Assembly (NCBI GenBank): GCA_016866775.1
Contig: VGLJ01000015.1
Coordinates: forward strand, 1 to 64,000
Direction of reading: 5' to 3'
Source of the DNA: Candidatus Rokuibacteriota bacterium
Lineage (GTDB): Bacteria > Methylomirabilota > Methylomirabilia > Rokubacteriales > CSP1-6
DNA length: 64,000 bases
Shown: positions 29,682-31,601 of the stretch, piece after piece
How the letters are laid out: each line of letters starts with the position of its first letter
Position numbering within the stretch: position 1 is the first letter of the stretch
The notes under the pieces: model-generated
What the model was told of the DNA's origin: nothing
Database searches by the model: none
Seen by the model: the letters and a program-made list of their open reading frames with translations, nothing else
Position numbers and translations under genes: made by a program

Positions 29682-31601
29682 ATGAGCACCGGCACGGAGC
29701 GCCACGAGTTCCAGACCGAGGTCCGCGAGCTGTTGGACCTCATGATCCACTCGCTCTACTCGCACAAGGACATCTTCCTGCGCGAGCTCATCTCGAACGC
29801 GTCCGACGCGCTGGACAAGCTCCGGTTCGAGATGCTGAGCCGGCCGGAGCTCACGCCCGAGGGCGAGCTCGAGATCCGCCTCGAGGCCGACAAGGACGCG
29901 CGCACGCTGTCCGTGCACGACAACGGCATCGGCATGAGCCGGGACGAGGTCGTCGCGAACATCGGCACGATCGCCCGCTCGGGCACGCGCGAGTTCCTGC
30001 GCGCCATGCACGACTCGGCAGCCGCGGAGGGCCCGGATTCACTCCGGGACCGGAGCGTGGGGGGCTTGGGGGGCGCGTCTCGCGCCCCCCAAGAAATGAT
30101 CGGACAGTTCGGCGTGGGGTTCTATTCGAGCTTCATGGTGGCCGATCGGATCACCCTCGTCACCCGTCGCGCCGGCGAGGCGACGGCGACCCGCTGGGAG
30201 TCGACCGGCGACGGCTACACGCTCGACGATGCCGAGCGCGTGAGTGCGGGCACGACCGTGACGCTCCACCTCAAGCCGAAGGACGAGGAGGACGGGCTCA
30301 AGGACTATACCGACGCGCTCACCCTCAAGGACATCGTGAAGCGCTACTCGGACTTCGTGACGTATCCGATCCGATTGAAGGCCGAGACGCTCAACTCGAT
30401 GAAGGCGATCTGGGCCCGCGGCAAGGACGAGATCACCGAGGAGGAGCATCGCGAGTTCTACAAGCACATCAGCCACGACTGGAACGACCCGCTCGAGCAC
30501 ATCAGCGTGCACGTCGAGGGGAACTTCGAGGCGCGCGCGCTGCTCTACATCCCGTCGAAGGCTCCGTTCGACCTCCACATGCGCGACGGCGTCCACCGCG
30601 GCCTGCAGCTTTTCGTCAAGCGCGTCTTCATCATGGACGACTGGCGCGAGCTGCTGCCGCCGTATCTCCGCTTCGTCCGCGGCGTCGTCGCGTCGGACGA
30701 CCTCTCGCTGAACGTCTCGCGCGAGATCCTCCAGAAGGACCGGCAGGTCCAGGCGATCAAGCGCCATCTCGTTCGCCGGATCCTCGCCGCCCTCAAGGAG
30801 ATGAAGGAGCAGCGGCCCGAGACGTACGGGACGTTCTGGACGGAGTTCGGCGCCGTGCTGAAGGAAGGCATGATCTCGTTCGAGGACAGCCACGACAAGA
30901 TCCTCGACCTCGTGCTGGCGCCGTCGACGGAGAGTGCCCCGCCGATCGGCCTCAAGGACTACGTGGCCCGCATGAAGGACGGGCAGGACGCGATCTATTA
31001 CATGACCGGCACGTCGCGCGACGCCGCGGCGCGGTCGCCCCACCTCGAAGCCTTCCGCGCGCGCGGGTGGGAGGTGCTCTTCTTCGTCGATCCGGTCGAC
31101 GAGCTGTGGTTGCGCCTGCCGCGCCAGTTCGAGGGCAAGACACTCGTCTCGGCGGCGACGAGCGACCTGAAGATCGGGACGGACGAGGAAAAGGCGCGCG
31201 AGGAAGAGGCGCGCAAGGCGAGCGAGGAGAGTCTCAAGGACGTGCTCCTGGCGCTGCGCGCGGCGTTGCAGGACGAGGTGAAGGACGTCCGGCTCTCGAC
31301 GCGTCTCACGGAATCACCCGCGTGCCTCGTCGGCGACGCCGGCGATCTCTCACCGCAGATGCAGGAGCTGCTCCGCCGCGCCGGTCAGGAGGTCCCGAAG
31401 GTCAAGCGCGTGCTCGAGCTGAACCCGAACCATCAGGTGATGACGAAGCTCCGTCAGCTCCACGCGCTGGATGCGAAGGATCCTCGACTTGCGATGTATG
31501 CGGAGCTCCTCTACGGCCAGGCGCTCCTCGCGGAAGGCGGCGCGCTCCCCGACCCTGCGGCGTTCAGCCGCCGCCTGACGGAGTTGATGTTGCAAACGTA
31601 G
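29682..31601 (+). CDS. htpG: HSP90-family chaperone HtpG with an in-frame repeat insertion
   Basis: The 639-residue HtpG has the N-terminal ATPase domain (EVRELLDLMIHSLYSHKDIF, SNASDALDKLRFEM, DNGIGMSRDEV, IGQFGVGFYSSFM), the middle domain (NVSREILQKDRQVQAIK) and the C-terminal dimerisation domain. Between GTREFLRAMHDSA and MIGQFGVGFYS lie about 23 extra residues, residues 115-137, encoded by a copy of palindromic repeat family 1 (30024-30092). This region is the ATP lid of GHKL ATPases, close to nucleotide. The frame is kept and every catalytic motif remains. No strong ribosome-binding site is visible before ATG 29682, and the esterase start is 33 bases upstream. Confidence 0.92.
   Translation: MSTGTERHEFQTEVRELLDLMIHSLYSHKDIFLRELISNASDALDKLRFEMLSRPELTPEGELEIRLEADKDARTLSVHDNGIGMSRDEVVANIGTIARSGTREFLRAMHDSAAAEGPDSLRDRSVGGLGGASRAPQEMIGQFGVGFYSSFMVADRITLVTRRAGEATATRWESTGDGYTLDDAERVSAGTTVTLHLKPKDEEDGLKDYTDALTLKDIVKRYSDFVTYPIRLKAETLNSMKAIWARGKDEITEEEHREFYKHISHDWNDPLEHISVHVEGNFEARALLYIPSKAPFDLHMRDGVHRGLQLFVKRVFIMDDWRELLPPYLRFVRGVVASDDLSLNVSREILQKDRQVQAIKRHLVRRILAALKEMKEQRPETYGTFWTEFGAVLKEGMISFEDSHDKILDLVLAPSTESAPPIGLKDYVARMKDGQDAIYYMTGTSRDAAARSPHLEAFRARGWEVLFFVDPVDELWLRLPRQFEGKTLVSAATSDLKIGTDEEKAREEEARKASEESLKDVLLALRAALQDEVKDVRLSTRLTESPACLVGDAGDLSPQMQELLRRAGQEVPKVKRVLELNPNHQVMTKLRQLHALDAKDPRLAMYAELLYGQALLAEGGALPDPAAFSRRLTELMLQT
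30024..30092. repeat. Family 1 palindromic repeat, copy A, inside htpG
   Basis: This 69-bp segment (23 codons) has two hairpins. The first is CCCGGATTCACTCCGGG; the second is a GGGGGGCGCG arm, TCT loop and CGCGCCCCCC arm. The same layout recurs at 53661, 57062 and 61879. Stem bases differ between copies but the pairing is kept. The element is read through in frame as EGPDSLRDRSVGGLGGASRA, a phrase that lacks stops. Confidence 0.9.

Follow-up and report, generated by a model that had tools for sequence, protein, structure and literature searches.

A dispersed two-hairpin palindromic element found in frame within htpG and other protein genes of a Rokubacteriales genome

Results

A palindromic element within htpG

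The window, that is the whole stretch of 64,000 nucleotides analysed here, carries a htpG gene with a palindromic element inside its reading frame (Table 1). The predicted product matched the NCBIfam model PRK05218 with 721.8 bits (cut-off 371) over profile positions 1-614 of 614. At nucleotide level the element in HtpG runs from TCG GCA to CCC CAA, and a covariance model of the repeat matched positions 30013-30103 with 99.4 bits. The htpG strand of the repeat folds into two hairpins with a lower energy than 200 of 200 shuffled sequences (z -4.5). A preliminary description had reported a dispersed two-hairpin repeat in frame within HtpG, which is borne out by three more copies in the window and by the genome-wide copies described below; it had placed the repeat at 30024-30092, and the repeat is present there but its edges are closer to those given in Table 1.

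The transposase gene a few hundred bases 3' of htpG belongs to the IS110 family, its reading is split over two frames and it looks frameshifted. At the far end of the window, the DnaE-like polymerase gene contains a stretch of ~138 residues (CVVGETEV ... DDHNFLANDLVVHN) between GFPE and SHASSFA; this stretch matched Pfam Intein_splicing (2e-12) and looks like a mini-intein.

Table 1. Positions of the features discussed, numbered along the window (CM, covariance model).
Feature	Position	Strand	Remarks
htpG	29682..31598	+	full-length open ORF, 639 aa, insert included
Palindromic element in htpG	30015..30092	+	78 nt, 26 codons, translated SAAAEGPDSLRDRSVGGLGGASRAPQ; edges from empty sites L032/L033
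Hairpin 1	30023..30057	+	outer pairs CGC/GCG, stem GGGCCCGGA/TCCGGGACC with one mismatch, loop TTCAC
Hairpin 2	30065..30093	+	CTTGGGGGGCGCG / CGCGCCCCCCAAG, loop TCT
IS110-family transposase	31873..33112	+	
Intergenic copy	53652..53742	+	CM 99.1 bits
Intergenic copy	57073..57161	+	CM 86.8 bits; a partial hairpin 1 duplicate precedes it
DnaE-like polymerase gene	58357..61872	-	
Copy between IMS-domain (impB/mucB/samB) and DnaE-like genes, both on the minus strand	61870..61961	+	CM 98.5 bits

The insert and the HtpG lid

In the HtpG of this genome 34 residues separate GTREF from IGQFGVGFYS, whereas the same stretch measures 13-23 residues, mostly 15-16, in other HtpGs, none of which has the insert. 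Two htpG-bearing relatives of the same family were available for alignment (73% and 83% identical HtpG); both are insert-free, and their lid stretches read FLAKVGERQGQVPPELIGQFG and FLRAVREAKATAAPELIGQFG. Against the 83% relative the 26 element codons stand for ~7 codons, a net gain of 19 residues, so that the in-frame gain reported earlier stands while its size, put at about 23 residues, was too large. A peptide spanning the insert junction is, for example, EFLRAMHDSAAAEGPDSLR. HtpG is scarce in the family, with matches in 3 of the 40 genomes searched (own included), which may reflect frequent loss or acquisition.

Alignment to E. coli HtpG structures located the additional residues in the loop immediately preceding IGQFGVGFYS. 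From general knowledge of Hsp90 and homology with E. coli HtpG we take this loop to be the ATP lid; the assignment of the insertion site to the lid agrees with the preliminary description to the extent that this homology holds. The lid was also modelled. AlphaFold2 gave the N-domain a mean pLDDT of 84, with a core above 90 and values below 50 at residues 126-134 in the insert, so in the model the insert is disordered and the domain core is confidently placed. As the ORF is intact and the motifs are conserved, the chaperone activity of HtpG would be expected to be retained, and the suggestion that the lid is one of few places tolerant of insertion appears plausible.

An assembly artefact, or a chance resemblance of natural variation in lid length, was considered, given that the genome is a draft of 159 contigs and that lid length differs among species. 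The copies, however, are many, differ in sequence and occupy different genes, related elements exist in other genomes, the model score in htpG is high and the longest natural lid seen falls 11 residues short of the lid here. We regard this explanation as having next to no likelihood; the lid-length data also led us to reject a lid extension arising naturally or by chance.

Copy number, consensus and structure

The element is dispersed throughout the 5.13 Mb genome. The htpG repeat (30013-30091) gave 42 BLAST matches, the 11-base motif GGATTCAYTCC occurred 97 times (reversed control, 0) and the covariance model detected 147 copies at E<=1e-3. Its length is about 75-90 nt, 32 copies aligning across ~90 columns, and the consensus consists of (T/A)C GGCACTCGC, hairpin 1, GCG N GGGGGGCTT, hairpin 2, ATGT and a fading tail; in the flanks, background composition is reached ~8-10 bases before the anchors and 12 bases after them. 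Close tandem copies ~100 nt apart were present at two loci (L335 and L344), and a partial duplicate lies at 57060-57161 of the window. Comparison with Rfam gave no family match, only two chance matches below the gathering score.

The hairpins are conserved. In an alignment of 113 copies, which was fitted to the model and hence favours structure, 97.4% of the stem cells were paired and two-sided changes were found in 17 of the 22 pairs; the covariation score was 0.251, compared with 0.057 after shuffling and <=0.044 for slid partners, and compensatory pairs filled 219 cells as against 51.6 +/- 7.3 after shuffling. An independent MAFFT alignment already has double changes. The sequences of hairpin 1 fall into three or more types that share one shape. 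Selection, a recognition step in mobility or quasipalindrome correction could each maintain such pairing.

Location of the copies

Among 144 copies placed relative to predicted genes, 85 lay between tandem, 29 between convergent and 7 between divergent genes, 11 were inside predicted genes and 12 were unplaceable (edge). Many copies were <=20 bases from a predicted gene end, a few bases from stop codons. This location, the rarity between divergent genes and the maintenance of the hairpins would fit an element that mainly works through its RNA or DNA structure where genes end (by protecting 3' ends, in termination or in nucleoid binding), as proposed for REPs, with the in-gene copies being accidental. 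Such a role would not conflict with mobility and could coexist with it; the tail has no T-run, so the element is no classical intrinsic terminator, and quasipalindrome correction could also maintain the pairs. As the main explanation we consider it possible, though on the unlikely side.

Genes were called with a home-made codon-score gene finder, and the in-gene calls were backed by family models and, for four genes, by empty sites. Under a strict test, which demanded an open frame through the element and a coding score on either side, the genome-wide search for in-gene copies returned nine genes: HtpG, LarC (nickel insertion), a FAD-binding reductase, a cytosine-deaminase-like amidohydrolase, a ceramidase-like protein, a YgfZ/GcvT-like protein, a PASTA-bearing penicillin-binding protein, LpxB and a histidine kinase. 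The gene finder added two, an acyl-CoA ligase and a LigD-like ligase. These genes represent unrelated families and the copies lie in both orientations and several frames. Frame-breaking inserts would tend to be called intergenic, as two genes, and for this reason the counts give no clean probability for frame retention. In a split-gene control on ten tight tandem pairs flanking copies, no gene was found to be split and no pair matched two parts of one family; the Pfam families differed wherever both sides matched, and three pairs matched on one side only.

Weaker relatives of the element were detected in 20 of 60 genomes at E<=1e-3 and in 15 of 60 at E<=1e-5 (own included), all of the same family. 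Copies in these relatives included one convincing in-gene case (L376), in which a hydantoinase-A-like ORF of genome G046 carries the element antisense and in frame; a second case, a C-terminal extension (L347), is doubtful. The in-gene habit is therefore not confined to the genome studied here.

Empty sites and the translated insert

Lineage-specific insertion was evident in four genes whose relatives have empty sites. In addition to HtpG, these were the YgfZ-like protein (net +23 aa against alignable relatives), LpxB (net +19 to +21 against nearly all relatives, one of which has a different extension) and LarC (net +22 to +27). Since the relatives have empty sites, sequence comparison demonstrates movement of the element into these four genes. 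The target lost per insertion appears to range from about 0 nt (LarC) to about 21 nt (HtpG). Not every core length is divisible by three, so the junctions also kept the frame. In the lpxB region (L190, contig C47:1-3600) the in-gene copy occupies C47:335-424, an intergenic copy lies at C47:1982-2072 and an apparent partial copy is located directly upstream of the lpxB start.

Mismatches to the consensus were distributed over the codon positions as 14/14/11 in four in-gene copies read in frame A, the commonest, and as 192/159/157 in 46 copies elsewhere. In-gene copies thus displayed no codon-position bias indicative of selection on the peptide, in a sample of only four copies with low power, and on this small sample the element peptide looks like tolerated filler. 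The insert might instead be adaptive, altering lid closure or client handling and kept for that, as it sits in a functional loop and several proteins carry similar peptides, rich in Ala, Gly and Ser, encoded by the commonest sense frame. Neither the lack of third-position bias in those four copies nor the low model confidence in the insert favours adaptation, and other in-gene copies, read in other frames or on the opposite strand, give unrelated peptides. An adaptive origin appears very unlikely.

Features of mobility

No k-mer of 3-8 nt recurred across the element beyond noise as a target duplication would, and old copies could have lost one. There is no pairing between the two ends of the consensus, GGCACTCGC and CCCCCCATGTC, of the kind that terminal inverted repeats would give. 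In size, palindromes, copy number and gene-end location the copies match REPs (PMC3733652), and mobilisation by a RAYT transposase, as in a classical REP/REPIN family, was weighed. A GTAG tag, however, was present at the two ends in only 4 and 4 of the 144 copies (CGTC in 11 and 4), and a search for Y1 (HUH) transposases returned 0 PF01797 matches and no RAYT gene in this genome, whereas the same search was positive in 9 of 24 genomes searched and in 5 of 14 controls, with relatives among the positives. The search for a mobilising gene covered transposases of the Y1 type in an assembly that is 97.5% complete. A REP/REPIN family moved by RAYT is disfavoured by the missing GTAG tag and Y1_Tnp gene and seems improbable.

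Discussion

We hold it to be highly probable that a mobile, probably non-autonomous two-hairpin element entered htpG in this lineage and was tolerated as a flexible peptide. Entry would postdate the divergence from the closest relatives sampled, with 78 nt of element replacing ~21 nt of lid-loop sequence. The insert would owe its retention to in-frame junctions, to a reading frame free of stops and to an ATP-lid loop tolerant of length, and its translation product would be flexible, no function being detectable for the peptide itself. A mobilising enzyme would act in trans, perhaps recognising the folded single strand, and elsewhere selection would have removed gene-breaking copies. A more specific proposal, that this is a family, in a lineage unrelated to Rickettsia, not moved by HUH enzymes, which replaces a short target stretch without target duplication and generates recurrent inserts of 20-26 residues in conserved enzymes, including those in HtpG, LpxB, LarC and the YgfZ-like protein, is offered as a doubtful one.

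This genome offers about ten conserved enzymes in which nature has done the insertion experiment, and for four of them relatives have empty sites. The absorption of a 20-26 residue insert by a protein becomes testable, and the ATP lid of HtpG is a functionally sensitive example.

In-frame inserts of palindromes have been described in Rickettsia and also, in the form of REPs, in several further bacteria (PMC10969869, PMC3733652). The Rickettsia palindromic elements (RPEs; Ogata et al., 2000, 2002) are palindromes of about 150 nt (PMC10969869) that lie in frame in many unrelated genes and also between genes, with nearly half of the R. conorii copies in genes (PMC10969869, PMC3733652). The element described here is likewise palindromic, dispersed in many copies and also intergenic, and is found in frame in unrelated protein genes while being absent from the orthologues of relatives (four genes). 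With relatives free of the insert and further in-gene copies in frame, the resemblance to RPEs noted in the preliminary description is upheld. The element differs in being about 75-90 nt long with two GC-rich hairpins, in residing in a 70% GC genome of an unrelated lineage and in having ~11 of 144 copies in genes. Homology to RPE families would be unlikely given the GC content.

REPs mostly lie beside gene ends where genes converge or run in tandem, and intragenic GTAG/CGTC REPs have been described from O. terrae, Thauera, R. conorii and others, some in genes, where they add 20-30 residues (PMC3733652). Copies here also adjoin gene ends in convergent or tandem arrangement and are sometimes inside genes, but carry neither a GTAG nor a CGTC tag, and a RAYT gene was not found. 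MITEs are short, occur in many copies, are presumably moved in trans and can form in-frame fusions (reviewed in PMC10969869). The present element shares these properties and differs in that its consensus has no terminal inverted repeats and no target site duplication is detectable. Among the papers searched by title and abstract for Rokubacteria with palindromic repeats, none described such an element. The habit is known from Rickettsia and from REPs. We regard the copies as a new family of palindromic elements, with no tags, no RAYT gene found and no Rfam match, and probably non-autonomous. Palindromic repeats have thus invaded protein genes in frame once more, in an unrelated lineage and with a different element.
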